NCBI GenBank assembly: GCA_009617715.1 | Contig: VTFK01000270.1 | Location: forward strand, 62,001-126,000 | DNA: 64,000 nucleotides | Source: Plectrocnemia conspersa | Lineage: Eukaryota > Arthropoda > Insecta > Trichoptera > Polycentropodidae | Direction of reading: 5' to 3' | Shown here: piece by piece, positions 8,222 through 61,165 of the stretch | Position numbering within the stretch: the stretch's first letter is position 1 | How the letters are laid out: every line of letters starts with the position of its first letter | Notes under the pieces: model-generated | Database searches by the model: none | What the model was told of the DNA's origin: nothing | Seen by the model: only the letters and a program-made list of their open reading frames with translations | Program-made: the position numbers and the translations under genes

Positions 8222-10111
8222 GTTGAATCACAAAACATCTCGATTTCTTTAACCCTATTAAAACTTGCTTTTCAATATTGATAGCCATATTTAATCATTT
8301 CTTCTATGCATATAGTGTCGTTAGAAAACGAAATAGCCCTCAATTTTTGAGAGGCTTAGGAATTAAAAACTTCCAGAGCGATATACCTAAGATGCAAGGA
8401 TTTATAAATTTACCATCAATAGAGAACGTTTTTTTCGCTTGAAATATTTGTAGGGCAACTAAGTTAAAGCCACGATTTGTCACTAGTCGGCATCTTATTT
8501 ATTAGAATTTTCATGAAATCTTTAAAAAAATTGAATTGCTCATCTGCGAAATCACTATGCTTTAAATTTAATTGACAACAAGCTTGGAAGGTTTCATAGC
8601 TTCATTTGAGTTCATGTTGAGGCCGTAGAGATAGTTCACTTAAAGGGGTTATAGAAAAACCAAACTTAATGTACCTTTTTTTATCATAATGTCTAGCTAT
8701 GTTTATTTTTATTTTTTTGCTTTTTAGCAATCGACACATTTTGTTTTTTTTTATTTCTTGTAAACTGAATGTACTCGTTTTTCAAAATAAAACTGTTGAG
8801 TTATTTCTGACTGTATGAAGTTTTCTAAAATAGTGTTTTCCAGACACCGGTGCCTACTATGGCACAATGCCAAACTTTTATGCCGTAAATCGTAAAAAAG
8901 TAAATATACTGTTAATACTGAATTATAATTGAAAACGTATCAGTGAAAACCCTGTTTATTTTTTAGCACACTCAAATTTCTAAAAATCTCTATTACGTGA
9001 AGTTATTTGAGAAAATCGCTTTCATATTTTTTAAATTAAAAATAGTATTTCGAAATATAAAAAAATATTATTTAGTATATATTAAAAGGTTTATATTTAT
9101 ATATTGGTTTTATAATTTTTTTATACTATACAATTTCCCTTTATAAATTATTTATAATATTATTCAACAGAATATTAAAATTTGCAACTTTAGTATTTAA
9201 AAAAGTACAGGTATTATTTCAAAATATTAAAATAAAAAAAAAGATTTTAATATGCCATAATTTAAGGAAAATTAAATAATTTTATGAATGTAATTATATC
9301 ACTAATTTATAATTTTAATTACACAAATATATTTAATTTTTAGTACACATAGCAGTATAACATATATTTTACAAACAGAACATCGATTCTTATTTTGAGA
9401 AATCAAACGGGAAAACCGGATTTAAACTAATATTTTACCCATAATACGCTAATATTGAATAACTAATTAATTATCGAGTTATATTAGCGTTTTTCTTCAA
9501 GAAGCATAAATATATTTTTTCGCTTGGCTTTCCTGTTCCATCTATAATGAACGTCAGAGATGAGTGACAGTCATTTTTTTGCCAAAAAATAGAAAGACAT
9601 CCGTTTAGGAAAGCTGGCGGCACTTTTGTAGCTCCCATTTAACAAGTTCTACTAGTGGTCAAGCAACCCGATGACTCACCTCCGAATTTAAATCATTACT
9701 CAAACGCAACCGAGACCTCTGAGCGCGAATCCTAAATCAGGGTGTTCAAGCGGACAATGGACGTGTCAATCGAATTATGGTTGCAGATAAAAAATTAAAA
9801 TTATATATTGCATGAGCTTCACAAAGGATTACCCATACGCATTTCTTCCTGGTTCCTGGTTCAATGTAATAATTTTCCTCGGCAGACATAACTCCTTTTG
9901 ATCATACATAACTGGATTTGAACCAAAATAGTGACATAATACACAATTTATATAATAGTGAGTACAGCTTAGATTTTCCAATTGACATCATCGTACGCCT
10001 ACTAGAGACAAAGGTCGTCGACGTGATCGTTAGTTTAACAATAAAGCAAGGCAACGAATGACTTAGACATGATTTATTTATAAAATGCCTTATTGTCATA
10101 GGTCTAATTTG

Positions 10112-48578: not shown

Positions 48579-48617
48579 TATATATATGAAGAGTGGTCTT
48601 CCATATCGATCAGAGTT
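48579..48617 (+). promoter_or_regulatory. Promoter P1 of gene A (TATA plus Initiator)
   Basis: TATATATA at 48579-48586 lies 33 bp upstream of an insect-type Initiator (ATCAGAGT, A at 48612). This is canonical TATA-to-start spacing. A ~75-base leader free of other ATGs follows, up to the ATG at 48687. Confidence 0.55.
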
Positions 48618-48686
48618 AAAATTCGCACTCCAAGACTAGTGATTTAACACAAGCTTAAGTGGCATTGTATACAACCGTATTATAAC

Positions 48687-48735
48687 ATGGACTCCAATCG
48701 CAGAGCCTTTGATATATATACAAATGTTTTTGGAG
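48687..48735 (+). CDS. Gene A alternative first exon 1a
   Basis: The ATG at 48687 opens 16 codons (MDSNRRAFDIYTNVFG) plus one base, ending at GGAG before GTACTG. The phase-1 end fits the exon 2 acceptor at 51123. This form would place a long, partly charged N-region ahead of the signal core, much as in gene B, and could be a signal peptide or a signal anchor. The donor is only moderate. Support comes from the matched phase and the good promoter just upstream. Confidence 0.45.
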
Positions 48736-51700
48736 GTACTGTTTATTTACTTTTATTTTAGTTTTTTTTTACGTTTTTCGGTTGTTTGTTTTATTAATTT
48801 TGGACAATTTATTAGTCATATTATATGCCATATGTCACACGTTTGATCCTGTTTTTCACGTGTCAGTAATTCGAGCGCCTTTACGTCACATTGGCCGATA
48901 AGAAAATGTTGACTATCGCTGTAACGCGATACGTAACGCGACTTAGTCATTCATTGATGTCTGGGACACACCTCCACCTTCCCCCACTATCACTAGGCGC
49001 CACAATGTTACCAATCTGATCAATGAAATTTCACGTCACTTCCGCACCCTGATACTTAAGACCAATATGCCATCGCCAGATCAGTGTCATTCGCGAGCGA
49101 ATCATCAAACGAGCATCACCGAGACGAGGAAAATAAAAAATGTGTCAAACTTACAGTGAACAAACTACCATACGCAATATGCGCGGAGGTAAATGTGCAA
49201 TGTGATATGTGTATCTACAAATCTCCAGTCCACCCGCACGTATTCACCGTGTACAATACATGCATCGTGTATAGTGGGATTCTATTTTTAATCGGCCGAC
49301 TGTCCCAGAAACCTCACCGTTGTGTGGTCACACAACGCGCCGTAAAACGAGACTGTTTTATTACCAATATCAATTATTCGCGACGGATTTGCCCGCACGT
49401 TAAAGTACATATTTTATTTTGCTAGTGCAAATATCAGTTCTTAATTGACGCCAGTCGAATTTTATTTTATTACTTTTTCGCGTAGAGATAACGAGACGTT
49501 TATTGCTTGAAAATCGAGTTATATTACAGCGTTACTTCAATTTAAAAAATATTACTCATACGTGTGACGTAGGCGATAAAGAGTCCACAAGAACATACTT
49601 GATTTGTTTACACTAAATATTAAGTGGAATCACGCTAGCGTCTAAAATATAGCGATTGATAAAAATGAGTTCAAATCGATCGTTGTAATACTTGCTTTAA
49701 ATTATTTTTTTATTATCGAGATCAAATTGACGGTTTAGTTTAATCATGTAATATTTTAGTACAAATACAATTAAACTTTAATTTAGATTTTAAGGATATT
49801 TTTATTCAATCTAATGTATGACAAATGCCGAATAAAATTATATAGTAGGATTTATACCACAATGATAAAGTAGCTCACTGCATTTAAATCTGACACAAAA
49901 TCTATTTGTTTATAATATATTTATTTGCATCTAGTATATCAATAATTTAATAGAAGCTTAGTTTTTGACTCCAGATTTTAATTATAAATTTACAAAAACT
50001 GTCTCAGTATTATTTTACAAAACAATTTTTAGTAAGAATGTGATATAGTCTTTTGCTAACATGTCGTAAATCTAAATTGTCTACCTCTATAAATTTATAC
50101 TTTACAAAAAAATTAAAAAGTGAGTGTATTATATATTTATGTGATACATTGAAATAAAGTAATAGTAAGACCTTCCAGATTAGTATTGTCCTTTTCATAG
50201 GCATTTTCATTTGTTCATCTACTACATATTTGTGATGCTCTTAGTGTCAATAAAATGTTTTAAAAAATCTCATTGTTTATGATTACTAGCTATTTTCATA
50301 GCTTGAGCGTTAGAATCGTATGCGCAAATTTTCATTCAAAAGTGGAGTAAGTTAATTCGCACTTAAGGCCATCGATATATGTGTTATTACTTTGCTTTTA
50401 ATAGCCTTTAGTACATGTAGTTATAAATGTAGTTAAAAATTATACATAACTTCTTTCTAAATTGTATTCATATCCTGGTGTTTGTTCCGTATCCTGGTGC
50501 TAAATTGCAAATTGTCTCTTTTTTGTCTTTGGTAATCATCTAGTTTTTTTAATTACTTTTTTATACGTATCACGGAGGTTCCGTCAACGGTTGTGATTTC
50601 GATCCGTTGTGCAATTGATCTGATTCCGGTTGAGGTGACGCGGCGCGGGGATTCCCCCGATTAGGTTCGCCGCTTTCATGTCCGTCGAAATCTCCGATAG
50701 AATAATGACACAAATAAAAAAAGATCACGAACACCAAGTGGCGGTTCCTGTCGGAGGGAAACGGACTTTGGCGGAAGCTGGTGGGGTGAGCATAGGAGGC
50801 TCGAAGGTTTGAGCATGCCACCAGTCACAGTTTGTCTCTGGCAGAGGCCGCACGTCATTCGCGAGCGAGCCTTGACACCCCGTGAAACGACGGCAAGAAC
50901 GATCTATCGAAACTTCATAAGATGTGATTCAATACAATTAGTGTTTTAATATTTGAAGTGTAATGGCAATTAACGATTTCACCACGCGATAGTTAATGAA
51001 AAAGCATGAATGTGAAAATAGATTTTTCATGGATGTAAATTTACGTGGTACGTTTTTTAATGTTCAGCGATTTCTACATTTATGTGCAGATTAAATAATG
51101 TGATATTTTACGTTGTTCGCAGGAATATCCGCAAGTAGGTGCACAATTCGAAGCATATGCCTAATATTGTTCCTCGCTTTGCTGGCCGATGCTGCGCCTC
51201 ACATCCTACAACCTAAGCATAATGGAATGGCTTGGATCAATCCTTGCGGGGTCCACCACGTCGAAAAAACGACTGTCAGACACCAAGCCAACTATTTCTT
51301 GAGGTTCCTCAAGGAAGAGCTGAAAGTGACCCTGCACGAATTCTACAAGACCCGCGGGCGCCAAAAGAAAGTACTACCTCTAGATCACAGATGCATGAAG
51401 ATCGACTACACTAAGTCCATCACGACGGATCTGACGAAGAGTTGGAAGGAGTATAGGATGTACAAGACAGAGAACCCCAACATCATAAAGAAGACGCCTG
51501 GAATATTGGTGAGTAAATTGCAATGCAAAGTGCTTCTATACTCGAGGTCGCTTCTCGAGAGAAAACACGCGTTATTCGCCCACATCTAGGCTCGACTCAA
51601 AGAACTTTTTAAAGTAACGTCCTCTCGGAAGAGCTTTCAATTCTGCTTTGAAGAGCTCTTGCGCGCTTGCACACAAAAGGGTCCCACGTTTTACGGGTCA

Positions 51701-54451
51701 GAGCGTGACATAAATAATTTTACCCACATCGTTGCGATCCATAAATTCAATTGATATGACATGCCTGCTATCCGCATGTAAATTATTATTTATATACTAC
51801 AATAAACATCGTAAAGTGTTACGCGCTAATTAAGAAATGTTCAATAATATGTAAAGTACTCAAATAACAAGTACATAATATTTTAAACGAATCTATCTGA
51901 ATTTAAATATTTAACGAATAATCGTCACATTCGAGTATTGAATATGGAATATAATACGGCGAATGATTTTAAAATATGCCTCACTGCCACTGAACATACT
52001 TTTATCTTTAATATTTATAAAATATTGTGCAATTTTATCGATTATATCTAGTTAATAAAATTATTACTTAAGCATCTCATTAATCTTTAATGTAAAAAAT
52101 GTGACATAGCTCGATAATCGTGACAATATAAAATAATATGCAATTTCTTTCGACGGTGTGAGTTTAAAAGAGCATTTTGCCTCGAGCTTGAGATATTATC
52201 GATTCATCGCCCTCCAATTTGCATGCATAATTTTCTTACGCGTCGCCATTAATCGAATGTTCGGGCAAATTTTTAAAAAAACAGTATCGCAAAGTTCCCG
52301 CCCGTAATAATGCCATCCTTGTTAACGTCCTCCGACATAAAATTATCTCGAACTCAAAGGAGAGAGCGCTGAACCGCAGATAACTAGTCATTCATAACAA
52401 ATATCATAGTATCGTTATCGTGAAATAAGACACAGTATTAATTGATTATTTATTCATTCGCTGAACTTAATAGAAATGAAGTGCGTCGATGATACATCGA
52501 CCACCTGCAAAACCAATAATAATGAGAATGAGTCGAATTACAGACCTCGTCAAATTTAATTGTCGCAATCGATAAGTGTGCGCGTTTGTAAACAATATTT
52601 AAAGTACGAATTCGATATCGCTGTTGAAGAGAAAGAATTATGCATCAAACGTGCCGTTGCATTTAATTATTTGTAAAATCTCATGGCATAACGCAACCGG
52701 CGATGATGTAAGCGAATTGTTTGTATAAAGTCAAGAATAGAATTTACATCCATACAACATATATATAGTATATATAAATTGACCGCAATAAGCGACAATT
52801 GGAAATCAAAAAAAAATATGATTACCTTCTTAAGCTTTAAATTGAACTAGGCGCAGACGATTTAGGGATTATGTCCAATTATTTTTTTCACTCGTTGATT
52901 TTATTTTATTATAATTGAACTGCCGTTGTACCGCGGAGACATCAACGCGCGCGAGAGCGAAACCTGCAATCGTAAAAATGAAACGTGCTGGACCTTCGCT
53001 GAGTTCGCCAACGCTACGAACGGAAAAACGCATAAGAAGTATACGTGCTCGAAGATTTAAACGGTTTTTTGCATTGCATTTAGTAAATGCAGACGTACAA
53101 TTTTAATTCTACTCGTATTTCGTTGAATAAAGCAAGACTTCTAATAATTATAACTACGATAAAAGAATACAAATCACGGATAATACTTTTAAAGTGCAAA
53201 TGATTTTTTAGTTATTTTAATATTGATACCAACATAAAACTAATTTAAAAAATTTTTTTTAACTTTTTTCCATCGAAATAATTTCATAGTATATGTACAA
53301 ATAATAAAAAAGTCACTCAAATAACGCTATAAGGAAATGTCATTTGTCTTTATCAATTAGTACATACGCATGCTTCTACCATTAATGCAACAAAACAGCT
53401 GTGCGTACTGACTACCGTCGTCGTCGTCGTCATAGTCGTCATGCAGAGTATATTATTATTAGATATTATAATTAAATTATCACTCTAAAACGTAAATTTT
53501 TAACATCACACCATTCGCTCGTGACAATATTGCGTTAATTGAACGATCATAAATATATTATTTAACCGCGCGTCGGCAATAAAAATTGCTAATAACATTT
53601 CACGTCAAATAAATTGTATCATGAAGGTGTTGACGATTTAGTGTCAAGACGTGACGTAAAGTGAGCTGCCGTTTCTTAGTTTTAAACTGTGGCCAGCTCA
53701 TTAGTTGCGTTCGTAAGACACATTTTGCGTTCCCAGGTGGCAGTTATGGTTCAATTAACGACAAATTACCCCACAGTTACTGATATTCCATCTGCTCGGC
53801 TGCAGTCCGTTTGCATACCAGCATCCCATGAAAGTTATTCTGAATTACTTCTGCGAGCCATAATTAGCTTAACAATAATTATATGTGCGTATATAAAAAA
53901 AATAATGACCACTGCTTGTTACGATCGCCACGACAACAGGTTGGGTCAGTTAAAATATATTTACTAATTATATTTTTTTTATTATTACAGATTCATGATT
54001 GGCTGTCTAAGTTTTACGAACGGCAAATGGGTTTCTACAATGGCTTCGAAAGGCTGATCAGAGTGAAGTTAGTCTCCGAAAGTCTCGTCTTTAAAGAAGA
54101 AGATCGCTTTGCGGCGATAGACCAATTGAAAACAGGGCTAGAAGTTTGTTGTGTGAAGTTGAAACCAGCTTGAACACGACGGGAATTCCTAAAGACTTTG
54201 TCGTAAAAAATATTCCATCAATTCTCCCGGGAAATTTTCCTGAGAAAGCAGACGTCGCTGGTATATGTACCTTGGACGAATCGTTTTACGCACTTTATCA
54301 AGAGTTTCTCAAAGACTGGCAGAAAATATTGAACGATATGAGTTCAATAAAAAAAGAGCGAAAGAGGATGCAACATGGAACACGCAGCTTAATTAGGAAG
54401 AGAGTTACAGCGCCTAAGAACAGAAATAGGCAAATCCAAAACAAGGGTTAA
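48687..54451 (+). CDS. Gene A: secreted four-helix cytokine-like protein (unpaired-like candidate), apparent frameshift
   Basis: Three-exon gene rebuilt from splice signals: an alternative first exon (48687-48735, 49179-49188 or 51029-51047), exon 2 (51123-51508) and exon 3 (53991-54451). The P2 form would be 285 residues once the exon-3 frameshift is bridged. Residues 12-27 are a signal core (SICLILFLALLADA), with cleavage likely after ADA. Cysteines fall at 45 (WINPCG), 94, 187 (LLCEV) and 225, and N194-T-T is a glycosylation sequon. Helix-like segments lie at about 56-79, 131-159, 168-193 and 227-258. The C-terminal 35 residues are very basic, suggesting matrix or heparan sulphate retention. 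Such architecture is known for long-chain cytokines and is proposed for Drosophila Unpaired JAK/STAT ligands. The match here is architectural only. Gene B downstream is its paralog. Confidence 0.6.
48857..48902 (+). promoter_or_regulatory. E-box, ATF-type and GATA motifs upstream of P2
   Basis: CACGTG (48857-48862), TTACGTCA (48881-48888) and GATAAG (48897-48902) lie within 46 bp, about 180 bp upstream of the P2 start. They would suit stress and tissue input to the downstream promoter, but this is motif-level evidence only. Confidence 0.35.
49051..49100 (+). promoter_or_regulatory. Promoter P2 of gene A
   Basis: A TATA-like GATACTTAAG at 49051-49060 precedes two Initiator candidates, TCAGT (A at 49083) and TCATTC (A at 49089). 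The 15-bp string GTCATTCGCGAGCGA (49086-49100) occurs identically at P3 (50854-50868). Confidence 0.5.
49140..49188 (+). CDS. Gene A alternative first exon 1b
   Basis: Two in-frame ATGs, at 49140 and 49179, lead to GGAG before a strong donor GTAAAT at 49189. From the second ATG the exon gives only Met-Arg-Gly plus one base. Joined to exon 2 this makes a compact, classical signal peptide (basic start, hydrophobic core, ADA cleavage site). The upstream ATG would add 13 residues. The intron would be 1934 bp. Confidence 0.6.
50607..50615 (+). promoter_or_regulatory. C/EBP-type site TTGTGCAAT
   Basis: It matches the C/EBP consensus (TT-G-Y-G-CAAT) and lies 31 bp before the kappaB site. In vertebrate acute-phase and IL-6 promoters this pairing marks inflammatory control. 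Whether insect C/EBP uses it is inference. Confidence 0.4.
50647..50657. promoter_or_regulatory. Perfect kappaB site GGGGATTCCCC
   Basis: This symmetric Rel-family consensus lies about 200 bp upstream of the P3 Initiator. Insect Relish, Dif and Dorsal bind this class of site. Eight of its eleven bases are G or C, so it is very unlikely by chance in an AT-rich genome, although the local block is GC-richer. Confidence 0.6.
51029..51047 (+). CDS. Gene A alternative first exon 1c
   Basis: The ATG at 51029 opens six codons (MDVNLR) plus one base, ending CGTG before GTACGT at 51048. The phase matches exon 2, and the intron would be only 75 bp, short but usable in insects. The leader from P3 contains several upstream ATGs, which would lower translation, so the start is uncertain. 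Confidence 0.4.
51123..51508 (+). CDS. Gene A exon 2 (signal core, WINPCG motif, helix A)
   Basis: The acceptor GCAG ends at 51122 and the donor GTGAGT begins at 51509. The exon enters in phase 1, leaves in phase 0 and gives 128 complete codons. It encodes the signal core, cleavage site, WINPCG (first cysteine), a strong amphipathic helix (VRHQANYFLRFLKEELKV onward) and the second cysteine (HRCMKIDY). GC and codon use are clearly higher than the flanks (many CTG, GCC and AAG codons). The frame runs into the intron to a stop at 51587-51589, so the exon must be spliced. Confidence 0.8.
51509..53990 (+). other. Gene A intron 2
   Basis: A 2482-bp intron from GTGAGT to a long T-rich tract and ACAG. 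It contains GC-richer patches (52140-52760 and 52920-53060) and a short GTC triplet run (about 53415-53436). Open frames at 52915-53106 and 53689-53967 have no domains and lack matched splice sites, so I do not treat them as exons. Confidence 0.65.
53991..54451 (+). CDS. Gene A exon 3, broken by an apparent 1-nt deletion
   Basis: It starts after tattattacag in phase 0 with IHDWLSKFYERQMGFYNGFE. The first frame hits TGA at 54171-54173. The other frame, open through the same region, continues from LLCEVETSLNTTG to TAA at 54449-54451. The switch is needed at the T run near 54145-54147, where one extra T makes a single frame of 153 codons. The recovered LLCEV aligns with FLCEV of gene B at the same distance from the exon start (54 versus 52 residues). 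This argues that the joined frame is the ancestral protein. Confidence 0.7.
54145..54147 (+). other. Frameshift point in gene A (T run)
   Basis: GAAGTTTGTTGTG reads GAA GTT TGT TGT in the upstream frame and TTG TTG TGT GAA in the downstream frame. One missing T explains the break. There is no slippery heptamer of the X-XXY-YYZ type, so programmed minus-one frameshifting is unlikely. A base-calling error in a homopolymer or a real loss-of-function allele is more likely. Confidence 0.65.
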
Positions 54452-55556
54452 AGTCGCGAATAATAATTAAAATATAAGCTTCGTGCTGAACCCAAGGAGT
54501 ATTGGTGATAATTTAACTTTGCCATGACAATTGTTTTTTGACTAGGCTATCAAAAACTAAATCTATATAGACAAACGTTCATATTCAACGCTTTAAATAC
54601 ATCATGTTTAAAGTGTTAATGTCGATCGAAGTCTTTCTTAGCCCAAAATGTCAGCTTAAACTTACAACACAGAAAATCAGATTAACCGTCTGAATTTCTT
54701 ACTAAAAAAAACTACTATTTGGGTTAATAAAACTGTGATATAAAAATATACTCAATCGATTTGTCAATTATTAAAATTATTTTGTATATTGTTTGAGTAG
54801 CAATTTTTGTAACATTTTAAAAATGATTATTTTTATATGAATCTAGTAACTAATTGTACACTGTGATAATATTTTATTATGTTAGCTTAAGTAAATAATT
54901 TTAATAATTATCTCAATAAGTAGGATACTGATCTTTTTAACTGAATCATGGCATTAATTTAATTGTTTTATTTATAAAATATATAAATAAACCACATTGC
55001 CAAATCTCAAATTAATTAGAATATTTTCTACATATTTCAAGATATGATATGAGTATTATAAAAGTTCCTTTGTATTATATTTATAAACTTTTAGTGTAAG
55101 ATTATATTGCGTAATAACTATTTATTTCATCACAGTGACCAAACTTATTATTAATATATAATTGTGATAGTTTTAAAAATAAACATTGTATCTCTTAAAT
55201 ATCGATTTTTGAGGAGTACAATTAAACAGTGTAAAAAGTATTATTTTCGAATGTATAGTATATGTAAGAATATGTTTTCAATGTATGTGCCATGTATAAG
55301 TAATATTTGTTTCTTAATTTATTTTTTCGCTTTTTCAAGCTTTACCTAATATTAATATTTATTTATTTGTATTGTAAATGTATTTTTTTAAATTATTATA
55401 AGTGGTAATTATAATCTGTATTTCACAATTCATTATTTATTTATCATCGCTCATTTAGAATCATAATTATTTATGTTAAAAATGTGATTAAGATTAACTA
55501 TATAATCGCAATTGTTCTGTACTATTTATGACAATTATTTAACGTGTTTCAATAAA
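54452..55556 (+). other. Gene A putative 3' UTR with poly(A) signals and AU-rich elements
   Basis: AATAAA occurs at 54726-54731, 54986-54991 and 55551-55556. Use of the distal site would include two exact TTATTTATT nonamers (55359-55367 and 55433-55441), the class II AU-rich element that destabilises cytokine mRNAs. In such AT-rich DNA these can arise by chance. Confidence 0.4.
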
Positions 55557-55559
55557 TAC

Positions 55560-57420
55560 TTTTTTTATTAAAAATATGTTCTTTATTGATTTACATTTTT
55601 AATGTATCCTTACATTAGTTTGTATTTAGATATACACCTAATAAAAAAAATGCAAATAGAATTGGTTTAAGAATTGGTTATAATTTTATTTAGATCAAGG
55701 TAGTTGAGTAGTTTGAGCTATTTAGCTTTTTATCACAACTTTAATTATAAAATATTTATTTTAACTTACAAAATATGCTAATTTTAAATAAATTTTATGG
55801 TTAATAAATAAAAACTTTTTTATAAGTTTTGTAACTAAGCAATAGATGGTATTCATTAAAAATATACAATTTAAAATAGAGATCAATAAAATATATACCC
55901 ACAGATTTTAAAAATAAAATTATAGTTATTCAGTTACAAAAGTAAATATTTAAATAAACAAAAATTATATTGTGACGATATCAGCAATATACAACAATAT
56001 TATCTTTAGATTAATTTGTTAAGAACAATGAATATTTAAATTTATTTACATTTTCCAGTAATTTCTATCAATGACATCTATTTTTTATTAAAGTAAATAG
56101 CTATATTATTGAGTTTAATAAAATATATTAAATGTTTATAGAATGCATAGATTTAACATTTTGTGATTATAGTTAAGCTGTGTTTACTTGTGTTAACCTT
56201 ACACTAGTAAAAATATTTTATTAATATCAAAAATCAATCAATTTAGGTTATATATATAAAAAATATAAAAATATATTTTTTTTACATTTAGACAGTGAAA
56301 ACTCAACTAGCTCAATTTGCTGTATCTATTAGCAGTGTAGTAAATAATACTAAATTATTGTTAATTATAAAAAAATACAAATATGTAGAATTAGTAAAAT
56401 ATTGTGTTTGTTTAGTAATTTACATGAATAGTAAGTAATTCTTTATTACTTGACACGTGAGTTTGAATTACGAATATACTACAAAAAAATTTATTACCCA
56501 TTAATATATTATCATTCATTAATCTTTCTAATAAAAATTGACTATGAATTTACTTTTCTTATCTGCATCAAAATGGCAGTATATTTATCATTAAAAATAT
56601 TTAATTTAATAGTATAATGTCAAACATGACGAAATATCTAATTAAATACAATTTAAGATTTACATCTCGATAATTATATAGCTGTCGATTATATTATCAT
56701 CGGAAATTAATTATTTAATGATGATTCATCATATTTAATCAAAAAATATCTTTGGTTGTCCTTAAAATTTGAGTTATAAATAAATAAAAAAAAATACTTG
56801 CAAACCACATGTTGAATTAAAAAGCATATTAAATTTCTGAAATCATTTTAACAATTCATAATTGAAGTTCATTATGCTCTTATTTTTTAGAAAAAAAAAC
56901 CTTCATTTTTCGATTATGCCTGAAATTTGAACGAGATTCCAGCAGCATTGCGATTTATCATTTCTTAATCGAAACTTGGTAAAAAAGCTTTGAAAATATA
57001 AATTTAATTAGATAAAGCAATGCAGTCTAAAAATATTAAATTAGGATCAGTTTTAAATTTGCATATAAAATATTTAAGGAATTATCTTACGAATATATTA
57101 AAAAAAGCTACATATTAAGGAACAGAATTAACAAATTATTATTTGTGTAATAAAACCTATCTTTTAAGAAAACATTCCTATGAAAAATAAAATGTATAGA
57201 CAAAAGTAGCAATACTAAAAAATTTTTTTTTAATAATGCACTACAAGCTCTTTTAAAGAGCGTTTTCAACAAGCTGAAGATTGGCAAAAAACTGTCAGTT
57301 GTGAAAATGTCAGTTGCTCTTGGTTATTTATATAATACAAATGCCAAATTATAATAATTTATTTATTTATAATAAATAGTCTGATCAATATATTCATTAT
57401 AACTAAACATAAATTTATAT
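55560..57420. other. AT-rich intergenic DNA between genes A and B
   Basis: No coding, tRNA or repeat signal was recognised; it is A/T low-complexity throughout. I looked for a relic of a second-exon copy just upstream of the tRNA-like repeat and found none. Confidence 0.6.
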
Positions 57421-57422
57421 AA

Positions 57423-57495
57423 AATGCTGAAAAAGCGTAGTCTTTTAGACGCTGGACTAATACTTTCGAGACCGCGGGTTGAAATCTCGCAGCAA
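57423..57495 (+). repeat. tRNA-derived repeat, copy 1
   Basis: The segment resembles a decayed tRNA: an A-box-like gcgtagtctttta, an anticodon-arm-like gctggactaata and a B-box-like cgggttgaaatct. It aligns over about 62 bp with 59345-59406 in gene B intron 2. It is not a functional tRNA because the acceptor stem is lost. It is either a SINE head or a segment duplicated with the gene. Confidence 0.5.
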
Positions 57496-57639
57496 ACTTT
57501 TTATTAGTTTATAGCTGACGATTTATTTGCGCATTTTTCGATGATTTTGTAGCCAAAAGTAAAAAAAATATAAAAATTCTCTATGTTAAATATAATTACG
57601 TAGATGGATTATTTCTACGTACACTATTCAATTAAAATA

Positions 57640-58040
57640 AAATAAAACGGGATAGTGCTTTGATTTTTTATGCGTATTAAGCGCATCGATACAGAACATT
57701 TATGGGGGTCACTCAGTCAAACAAACTATAAAATCAATGGCGCTATAAGTTGGAAATATCCATATCAAAAACGCGTAAAACAATAAAATTAAGTTACACG
57801 TAAGTTATAAAGGTCATTCAAGCCACATAGACAACATAGAGGGCCCGCCGCTGGGGCTTCGTCCTTAACCGATTGTTCATGCAACAAGAAACTACGCATT
57901 AAGAAACGCCTACTATTGGTATATCACGCTTGGGAGGTTGGGGCCCCCATAGAAGGTTGTTTTGACCCGGTCATTTTAGCGCCAGCTGATCTGGCGCCGA
58001 ACATTTTGGCGCAAAGATCACATCAAATCGATAGATGTAT
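57640..58040. mobile_element. GC-rich insertion, probable unclassified transposon fragment
   Basis: The block 57650-58020 is sharply GC-richer than its flanks (gggcccgccgctggggcttc, gggaggttggggccccca, and the repeated GGCGCC and TGGCGC strings near 57980-58013). It has no coding frame. It separates the tRNA-like repeat from the relic exon, where gene B has only about 250 bp between the equivalent elements, consistent with an insertion. The family is not identified. Confidence 0.35.
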
Positions 58041-58430
58041 CATCTAAGAATTGATAAGATTGATAATATTTTTTCGTAGCAGTATATTTCTTATTCAATA
58101 TATTCGAGAGGAATAAAGATAACAATTAAATAGGATGCGTTTAACAGGAAATTGTGCATTTAAATAAATACTTTATTCAACAAATCAAATTGTTTGTGCA
58201 CTTATGTAAAGTAAATCTTCAGATTTTTTCTTCGAAAAAGGATTCGTTGCAGAAAATTATTAATGGGGTGCTTACTATTCTGACCAGTGACCTAATCTGT
58301 CACTAATCTGAGTTACACGCCATTTTATGGGTAGCACCATTATTATGGCCAAGGCTGTATATTGGTTGTAAACTATATTAATATTTTTTTAATATTTATA
58401 TCATATTATCATATTATTATTTATATCATA

Positions 58431-58563
58431 TTATCTCATTGTAACGCATTGGGCGAAGGCATATCATTATATTTAAGAAATCACGAATAGATTATTTTTT
58501 ATTTTAGATAAGAGATTGGTTGAAAAAATTGGTATAGTACAATATTAAAAATGAAAGAAGTTA
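58431..58563 (+). pseudogene. Relic of a third cytokine-like gene: intron end and exon 3 start
   Basis: Bases 58508-58562 match the first 57 bases of gene B exon 3 with three substitutions and two single-base deletions, and the acceptor tattttag is kept. The preceding ~75 bases also align with the end of gene B intron 2 (ttatctcattgtaacgcatt versus ttatttcaatgtaacgtatt). The frame reads IRDWLKK, then breaks. Similarity stops after gaaagaa. It is a decayed fragment of a tandem duplicate, not an exon in use. Confidence 0.75.
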
Positions 58564-58608
58564 AGATATTTTTTCAGCAGGTAGTGAAACCGAAAATATT
58601 ATTGCTGC

Positions 58609-58646
58609 TAGATTTATGCAATCCAGAACGAAAGCATCTATTATTG
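58609..58646 (+). repeat. Dispersed repeat fragment, copy 2
   Basis: It matches 39774-39813 at about 84% over 38 bp. It begins about 45 bp after the relic exon stops matching gene B, so an insertion of this repeat may have truncated the relic. Confidence 0.5.
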
Positions 58647-58776
58647 TTTTAAAATGCTTCATAAGTATTGTTTTAAATTACATAAATAGCATGTGTTGCA
58701 TTTAAATTATTAATTTTAATTTTAAAGATAAATACAATGTTTATCAGATTGACAGATTTTGACGATATCAGAGACG

Positions 58777-58812
58777 TTAAATGGTGGCGCTTAGAAAAAT
58801 TCGACTCATTCG
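58777..58812 (+). promoter_or_regulatory. Candidate promoter of gene B
   Basis: A TTAAAT TATA-variant starting at 58777 lies 31 bp before the A of a TCATTCG Initiator (58806-58812). The same seven bases open the shared core sequence of gene A promoters P2 and P3. The leader to the ATG at 58879 would be about 70 bases. Confidence 0.4.
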
Positions 58813-58878
58813 TAATACTACCTGCTAGAATAATCATTACGTAGTTCAATTATGATGTGTGCCTTGTGCGAACATAAA

Positions 58879-58930
58879 ATGGTGTGGAAATATAACAGAG
58901 CGAAATCGGACAGGATTGATAAATGGAAAA
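58879..58930 (+). CDS. Gene B exon 1
   Basis: The ATG at 58879 opens 17 codons (MVWKYNRAKSDRIDKWK) plus one base, followed by the donor GTATGT. The 84-bp intron ends in a T-rich tract and TACAG at 59014. The phase-1 exit equals that of all three gene A first exons. No alternative ATG is needed. Confidence 0.65.
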
Positions 58931-59969
58931 GTATGTTCAATATATAATATTTATGTTGTAGTATTAATAATTTTAAAATTAATGTTTTAAATTTATTATT
59001 TGTTTTAATTACAGAATTATGTACAGTTATGATTTTTATTACGTTAATAAAAAGAGGAAATACCCATCCAATTTCAACTTATGATATATTTTATGATGAA
59101 CCGTGGAAAAATACATGTGGCAATTACAAAGAAAAAAAAATTAACGACAAAAGTCCTATCGAACTAGACATAATAAGTAAAAGCCTGAGTGAAGTTCAGT
59201 ATTATGTTTGTAGTTTAACAGAAGTCAATATTCACCATAAAAAAATGGACATGTTCAATAGATACCTAAAGAATAAACATAGCTACGCGGACAAACAAGC
59301 ATTGGTATTTATTACTTTTTAATTATTTTTACTTAAATTATTTTATGCCGGAATAGTGTAGTTCGTATAGTGCTGGACTAATAATCTATAGCTGTGAGTC
59401 AAATCTATTAGTAGATTTGATTTTTTTTATTTATAAAAATTAGTTATAAATAAAAACCGGGATTTTATATGAATTTTAAGCTATAATAATTGTTTATTAG
59501 TAATTAAATATTATAGATTTTACAGACTTCAATACTTATTGTTACTTTGTTTCATTAATTACTTGTATATGTTGCTTATATTATTTCAATGTAACGTATT
59601 AGACTAATGCATAAAAAATTATAATATTGCTGCAATACAAATAATTTGTTTTTATTTTAGATAAGGGATTGGTTGAAAAAAATTCGGTACACTACAATAT
59701 TAAAAATGAAAGAACTCTCTCACATTGGAAAAAATATATTAGAAGACAAAAATTATATTTCTACAAAAATAATTGATAAAGCTCACAACACCATGATAAA
59801 ACTTAATAGTTTTTTATGTGAAGTAGTGTCTTCAATTGGAAACAAACCAGAAACGAGAAAACTGCTTAAAGGAGAAACACAAGAAACAATATTTTATAGG
59901 GACTGTTGTAAATTTTTGTCTCATTCTCTAGGGATATTAAAAGATTTAAAGGATATTGCTCCACGATAG
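58879..59969 (+). CDS. Gene B: intact secreted four-helix cytokine-like paralog of gene A
   Basis: Exons 58879-58930, 59015-59304 and 59661-59969 give an unbroken 216-residue product. Residues 1-18 are basic and residues 19-29 hydrophobic (LCTVMIFITLI), a signal peptide with a long N-region. Cysteines lie at 52 (WKNTCG), 83, 167 (FLCEV) and 196/197. Helix-like stretches fall at about 65-88, 110-141, 149-173 and 188-212. Intron phases (1, 0), the exon 3 opening IRDWL and the 52-residue spacing to LCEV match gene A, while overall identity is low. It lacks gene A's basic tail and has no N-x-S/T sequon outside the rare NTC. This is fast divergence after tandem duplication, as expected of immune ligands. 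A receptor of the Domeless type is a guess. Confidence 0.65.
59015..59304 (+). CDS. Gene B exon 2
   Basis: It enters in phase 1 (A plus AA makes Lys) and leaves in phase 0 at GCATTG before GTATTT, the same LEU-then-donor context as gene A (ATATTG before GTGAGT). It holds the signal core, WKNTCG and the second cysteine (YYVCSL). It is 32 codons shorter than gene A exon 2. Confidence 0.65.
59345..59406 (+). repeat. tRNA-derived repeat, copy 2, in gene B intron 2
   Basis: The segment gccggaatagtgtagttcgt onward shares the gctggactaata core and the whole register with 57423-57484. It starts 41 bp after exon 2 and has lost a recognisable B box. It is more decayed than copy 1. Confidence 0.5.
59661..59969 (+). 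CDS. Gene B exon 3
   Basis: The acceptor tttttattttag is followed by 102 codons and TAG. The exon begins IRDWLKKIRYTTILKMKEL and includes FLCEVVSSI and a YRDCCKF doublet. The frame is continuous, which makes it the template for judging the break in gene A. Confidence 0.75.
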   Translation: MRDWLKKIRYTTILKMKELSHIGKNILEDKNYISTKIIDKAHNTMIKLNSFLCEVVSSIGNKPETRKLLKGETQETIFYRDCCKFLSHSLGILKDLKDIAPR

Positions 59970-60171
59970 TAAAATACAGCTTTGTATAGTTTTAGATTTG
60001 AACTTAACACAGCAATCTCGTGTAAATGTGCTTTAATTAAATTAATTAATAATTTAATTTATTTATTATTTATATGAATGTGCAAATGAATTATTAATAA
60101 TTCATCGATAGATGTATATTAGAGTTTTGAAATGTTGTATACAGATGTCGTATTTATTAATTTTGAATAAA
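59970..60171 (+). terminator. Gene B putative 3' UTR and poly(A) signal
   Basis: AATAAA at 60166-60171 lies about 200 bp after the stop. An exact TTATTTATT nonamer (60059-60067) sits within overlapping ATTTA pentamers (60057-60072). It echoes gene A's 3' region, with the same caveat about AT-rich DNA. Confidence 0.45.
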
Positions 60172-60290: not shown

Positions 60291-61165
60291 TAGTAATAAT
60301 ATATTTTATATGGTAAATCTCTTAAAAAACGTATTCACCATTTTTTAAACGAGTCATTATAAAAAAAAATCTTGTGTGATTTGAATTAAAGTTAGCTTCT
60401 TGTAACATTGAGAAAGTAATAACGATCAATAGGAACTAATAAACAAGATGATTTTTATGCGATTTTAACTATTTCAAACATCACAATCCTTCTCCAAAAA
60501 TATCTAGATGCTAAAAGTTTGCGATTATGTTTTGTTTGCAAACAAAACTCATAAATTGGATATACTTAAAATTCATGCAATTTGCAATAAAAAATGTGAC
60601 TTGTTTCACTCTCTTTTTCAATGAATCCTGAATTTCATTTAATACCAATATTCAATCGCATTTTTTTAACCGTTTCTGACTTATCCCACTTTCATGATAA
60701 ACGGCACATTTTTTTTCTATCCTATAAATGGGATAAATAAATGTGCCGTTTATCATGAAAGTGGAATAAGTCAGAAATAGTTAAAAAAATGCGATTGAAT
60801 ATTGGTTTTAAATGAAATTCAGGATTCATTGATTTGGAGAGTGAAACAAGTCACATTTTTAATTGCAAAATGGAGGAACTTTGAGTAAAAATATCTAATT
60901 TATGAGTTTGGTTTGCAAGCATAACATAATCGCAAACTTTTAACATCTAGATATTTTTGGAGAAGGATTGTGATTTTTGGAATGGTTAAAATGTCATAAA
61001 AAACAACTATTTTATAAGTTCCTTTTAATCTTTAATAACTTCTCAATGTTACAAGAAGCTAACTATAATTAAAATCAAAAAAGACGTTTTGTTTTATAGC
61101 TCGATTAAGAAATGGTGAATACGATTTTCAAGAGATTTGCCATATTAAATATATTTTTAGAGATA
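60291..61165. mobile_element. Long foldback: two ~415-bp inverted arms with almost no loop
   Basis: The left arm (about 60300-60720) and right arm (about 60731-61160) are reverse complements with roughly 85% identity by eye over more than 400 bp, including small indels. Matching landmarks include ATGGTAAATCTCTT with AAGAGATTTGCCAT at the ends, TATCTAGATGCTAAAAG with its partner, and CATGATAAACGGCACATTT with AAATGTGCCGTTTATCATG at the centre. The loop is only a few bases (near tataaat, 60723-60729). No coding frame and no clear target-site duplication were found. It may be a foldback transposon or a hairpin-RNA locus, lying 120 bp past the gene B poly(A) signal. Confidence 0.8.

Follow-up and report, generated by a model that had tools for sequence, protein, structure and literature searches.

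A 64,000-nucleotide (nt) window of the genome of the trichopteran insect Plectrocnemia conspersa, positions 62001-126000 of contig VTFK01000270.1 (here C263, in coordinates C263:62001-126000), contains two neighboring genes, A and B, which together with a third gene on the same contig, C, are probably fast-evolving cytokines, small, helical and secreted, with an action like that of Unpaired of Drosophila. C263 has a length of 376976 and belongs to an assembly of 393 Mb in 959 contigs. In Drosophila, the Unpaired genes (os/upd1, upd2 and upd3) occur as several copies clustered on one chromosome stretch, and the class I four-helix cytokines of vertebrates are secreted long-helix bundles that act through JAK and STAT. 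Judged by their sequences, it is likely that A, B and C work as ligands of the Unpaired type, while their membership of the Unpaired family is plausible, not proven; we have not filed them as family members because the curated cut-off was not reached.

The gene structures of A and B and the motifs common to both are real. The two genes lie 4.4 kb apart on the same strand and were rebuilt at the junctions of the original prediction, with intron phases 1 then 0 in each, and GT-AG is found at all eight splice sites (49188/gta, cag/51123, 51508/gtg and cag/53991 in A; 58930/gta, cag/59015, 59304/gta and tag/59661 in B). The further marks by which the pair had been singled out are likewise present in both genes: a signal core near the start of exon 2, with its hydrophobic core at residues 27-38 in A and 19-29 in B; W-x-N-x-C-G; an exon 3 opening with I-[HR]-D-W-L; and [LF]-L-C-E-V. 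The spacing of 52-54 residues that had been given for the last two is only roughly right: counted from the I of I-[HR]-D-W-L, [LF]-L-C-E-V begins after 53 residues in A, where the translation carries a single X across a frame break, and after 50 residues in B. After the signal core, cysteines stand at residues 58, 107, 201 and 239 in A and at 52, 83, 167, 196 and 197 in B. A 15-mer, GTCATTCGCGAGCGA, is found both at window position 49086, just upstream of A exon 1, and at 50854, upstream of exon 2, and perhaps reflects two promoters of A.

The resemblance to Unpaired emerged from a search against 24736 Pfam families, in which Unpaired (PF15972) was the sole match of A, at an expectation value (E) of 0.005 for the whole protein and 0.0033 without the signal part (profile positions 23-171 of 273), and also the sole match of C, a gene that the original prediction had not seen (E 0.0045 whole and 0.0035 without the signal part; profile positions 25-169). 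No match was obtained with six block shuffles of A, and reversed A gave no Unpaired match and another family at E 0.22. Masking W-I-N-P-C-G abolishes the Unpaired match in A and in C. With L-C-E masked, A loses the match and C keeps it at a weakened E of 0.058; when W-L of D-W-L is masked in A, little changes (E 0.0051). Thus, marks noted in the original prediction contribute to the score against the Unpaired profile. The likeness to the Unpaired family consists of this sole though weak match of A and C to its profile, in which W-N-C-G and L-C-E are scored, and of the presence of what may be several copies on one chromosome stretch, as in the Drosophila cluster. When the genome was read frame by frame, the single match of the Unpaired profile was a weak one on C185 (E 3.3), and A and C, both of which have split exons, did not come up. 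Neither A nor C has a match in NCBIfam.

Gene C lies about 102 kb upstream of A on the same strand and was first found by tblastn with A, through a W-I-N-P-C-G at C263:2301 with an E of only 1.3. Genome searches with A and with B returned only the genes themselves plus weak places (E 0.29 and 6.9), and as C was recovered by neither, searches of this kind have a short reach. As in A and B, a signal-like core stands at an exon start in C, which has more introns later and carries W-I-N-P-C-G and V-L-C-E-I. The order W-N-C-G, D-W-L, L-C-E is the same in all three genes and the spacing varies, with 145 (A), 117 (B) and 140 (C) residues from the W to L-C-E. W-x-N-x-C-G occurs three times in the six frames of C263 (753948 positions, the count covering C263:1-356000 of 376976 with the last 20976 bases read as N), only in A, B and C and each time after a signal-like core.

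The global alignment of A with B after the signal core scores 41. Among 2000 full shuffles, one scored as high, and among 2000 block shuffles, three did; with other trimming, 13 of 1000 shuffles reached the score. Their local alignment is weaker (score reached in 62/2000 shuffles, and in 41/1000 in another trial), and BLASTP of A against B yields short pieces only. For B and C, the global score was reached by 14 of 2000 block shuffles, and single-sequence HHalign in local mode gave P values of 0.00047 for A-C (16 columns around L-C-E), 0.0028 for A-B and 0.13 for B-C. From the motif order, the B-C alignment, the local HHalign results and the Unpaired match of both A and C, we infer that A and B are homologous to C; the similarity by which the three would be called paralogues is weak.

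A genome search with C led to three places on another contig, C560 (E-values 2e-24 to 2e-15), which correspond to genes D, E and F, spread over both strands of C560:130130-139440. By sequence comparison, these are clear homologues of C (each paired with C, they give BLASTP E values between 8e-19 and 1e-50), and all four genes have in common N-P-C, D-[WG] before L-P, [LV]-C-[DE] and R-D-W-x-I-[YF]. Since no more than about 3 kb separates C, and likewise D, from a contig end, the genes on C263 and those on C560 may together form a single cluster with a size of about 130 kb or above. The end of C560 was considered as proof of a join to C263 and rejected because it is repeat sequence: it is 94% identical to a stretch beside reverse-transcriptase frames at C263:158579-159031 and matches many places of C263. 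A genome holding at least six members, A to F, of one diverging Unpaired-like cytokine family is possible, and we advance the idea tentatively.

In regard to structure, a model of B exon 3 made with no alignment has helices at residues 2-28, 35-61, 63-68 and 74-99, with a mean predicted local distance difference test (pLDDT) score of 73. These helices plus one from exon 2 would suit a four-helix bundle, and we infer a four-helix fold for the whole protein. A exon 2 with its one protein relative, P0001, gave no usable model in AlphaFold (pLDDT 39). With an E limit of 10, Foldseek returned 563 matches to B exon 3, and with a limit of 0.001 it returned none; no cytokine was among the 50 Foldseek matches or the 50 VIA-align matches listed, which says little for a three-helix piece. 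Mechanistically, A, B and C would be made with a signal peptide and then released, as their hydrophobic cores suggest; the released proteins may bind a Domeless-type receptor, and this binding would switch on JAK and STAT. STAT_bind was found once in the genome, at C347:87973 (E 1.7e-38). STAT-site counts in the window were 23 and 21, with about 21 expected. What would link these proteins to class I four-helix cytokines is the broad concept of a secreted bundle of long helices that signals via JAK/STAT.

Evidence that A is coding comes from P0001, the sole relative that a search of about 5.8 billion predicted proteins found for it with E up to 1. P0001 is a 169-residue frame on a single 978-base contig; of the 129 residues of A exon 2, 9 are changed in it, with no insertion or deletion (93% identical), so that this exon is kept in frame, and the reading frames of the two diverge a few codons past the donor, as expected at an exon-intron boundary. 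Together with a third-position G+C of 0.63 in A exon 2 versus 0.34 in A introns, a B frame that is open across three exons despite AT-rich DNA, and an A-B similarity above that of nearly all shuffles, this makes it very improbable that the likeness of A and B is a matter of chance between unrelated open frames or pseudogenes in decay. Such an explanation would draw on the one-base break in the frame of A exon 3, which is either an assembly error or real; on the decayed copy that lies directly before B and includes the start of its exon 3, which indicates an earlier duplication of a part of B and its loss; and on B itself, which has no codon-position bias and no protein relative at E up to 1 in the predicted-protein search. 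Prokaryote genomes yielded no relative of A exon 2, and viral contigs yielded no relative when searched with A exon 2, with the A exon 3 end or with a profile built from C, D, E and F.

Alternatively, A, B and C may belong to another, unnamed family of secreted helical proteins, such as hormones or seminal or salivary proteins, with a likeness to Unpaired that amounts to two short motifs. We regard this as unlikely, as Unpaired had been named beforehand and is the sole match of two diverged genes, in the same register, and as the order of the three motifs is shared by A, B and C, at variable spacing. Nevertheless, a series of results weighs against an Unpaired-type ligand, beginning with the frame break in A and with Unpaired scores of 16.9-17.5 bits for A and 17.0-17.4 bits for C, under the curated cut-off of 27 bits. 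The match, which hangs on the two short motifs, is absent from two shortened forms of A, from the first two exons of C alone and from the last three alone, and from P0001 alone; when P0001 exon 2 is swapped into A, Unpaired is still the sole match and drops to E 0.029. B has no Unpaired match, only DUF713 (E 0.025-0.029) and DUF445 (E 0.11-0.16), and the clear relatives of C, namely D, E and F, have none either; D and F have weak matches to unrelated families (E 0.028 and 0.011), and with B, D and F all matching unrelated families at E 0.01-0.03, weak scores alone mean little. To these we add that the A-C global alignment is non-significant (score reached by 352/2000 full and 282/2000 block shuffles), that HHalign in global mode gave nothing for any pair of A, B and C, and that the C-D-E-F profile fails to recover A and B, as 74 and 107 of 1000 shuffles, respectively, score as high.

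The Foldseek and VIA-align matches listed for B exon 3 are generic bundles, for example syntaxins, CorA, BAG domains and designed bundles, which sets it apart from the class I cytokines and also counts against our interpretation. A further difference from these cytokines, and a point in favor of another family, is that there was no credible PDB sequence match: A gave four matches, the best at E 0.16 (kinetochore Mcm22), part of C none, whole C one at E 0.99 and the C-D-E-F profile none (B was not searched). Among the differences from the Unpaired family are loop lengths that diverge greatly in A and B, and in this comparison, made via the Pfam profile only, A and C are below the cut-off and B is unmatched. 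The proposal that A and B are divergent members of an Unpaired-like system is partly supported, being strengthened by A and the previously unseen C matching Unpaired alone, and held back by the sub-cut-off scores of both and by B. On balance, we favor the interpretation of A, B and C as cytokines working like Unpaired.

Table 1. Coordinates of genes A to F and of the decayed copy of part of B. Positions of A, B and the decayed copy are those of the window; all others are contig positions.
Feature	Coordinates	Strand	Remarks
Gene A exon 1 (putative)	49140..49188	+	16 complete codons and one further base; donor of phase 1; putative start codon
Gene A exon 2	51123..51508	+	signal core; W-I-N-P-C-G; relative P0001 93% identical
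Gene A exon 3	53991..54451	+	I-H-D-W-L, L-L-C-E-V and stop codon; frame broken by one base near 54140
Decayed copy of B intron 2 end and exon 3 start	58428..58559	+	79% identical to 59578-59714
Gene B exon 1 (putative)	58879..58930	+	phase 1 donor; putative start codon
Gene B exon 2	59015..59304	+	signal core; W-K-N-T-C-G
Gene B exon 3	59661..59969	+	I-R-D-W-L, F-L-C-E-V, stop; three predicted long helices
Gene C possible first exon	C263:67-325		ends in phase 1 donor
Gene C	C263:2179-2348, 2421-2516, 8724-8855, 8925-9086, 9158-9346	same as A, B	stop in last exon
Gene D	C560:138693-139352		one long open frame over matched part
Gene E	C560:135025-136992		two exons
Gene F	C560:130207-130836		one long open frame over matched part

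The surroundings of these genes contain few recognizable features. Six other open frames of the window had no Pfam match, Rfam and tRNA (transfer RNA) scans of the window were empty, and C, D, E and F had no match in PHROGs. A long inverted repeat at window positions 60454-61000, with arm pairs of 153 and 115 nt that are each 90% complementary, is perhaps a foldback element. Elsewhere on C263 are an open frame matching DNA/RNA non-specific endonuclease (C263:163270-163974; Endonuclease_NS, E 5.4e-35) and a reverse transcriptase frame (C263:13428-14447; RVT_1, E 8.1e-12).

Our findings bear on a broader discussion of how insects outside the flies activate JAK/STAT signaling. In the portions of the published sources cited here, an upd orthologue was not identified in the beetle Tribolium (PMC2375007), a mosquito study calls the ligand not conserved outside Drosophila (PMC3130749), the JAK/STAT ligand was not found in scale insects (PMC11084805) and is marked N in a table on a butterfly (PMC3654919), and a planthopper transcriptome gave no ligand match (PMC2885366; likewise PMC10069781). 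The receptor, JAK and STAT are reported in most of five of these (PMC2375007, PMC3654919, PMC11084805, PMC2885366 and PMC3130749), again as far as the cited portions extend. In the honey bee, an Upd-like gene name, UpdlC, is in use, and the gene is said, in the part of the source referred to here, to have been characterised in bees (PMC10846157). Upd-like ligands outside flies are thus not unknown, and the genes described here may be likened to UpdlC, by its description in that source, as Upd-like ligand genes beyond flies. No publication tied to the present locus was among the literature matches listed.

The genes described here offer several handles for searches aimed at the missing ligands, namely W-x-N-x-C-G, D-W-L, L-C-[ED] and R-D-W-x-I-[YF]. 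If the six-member family is borne out, JAK/STAT signaling in insects beyond the best-studied flies would employ several ligands, which escape standard searches.

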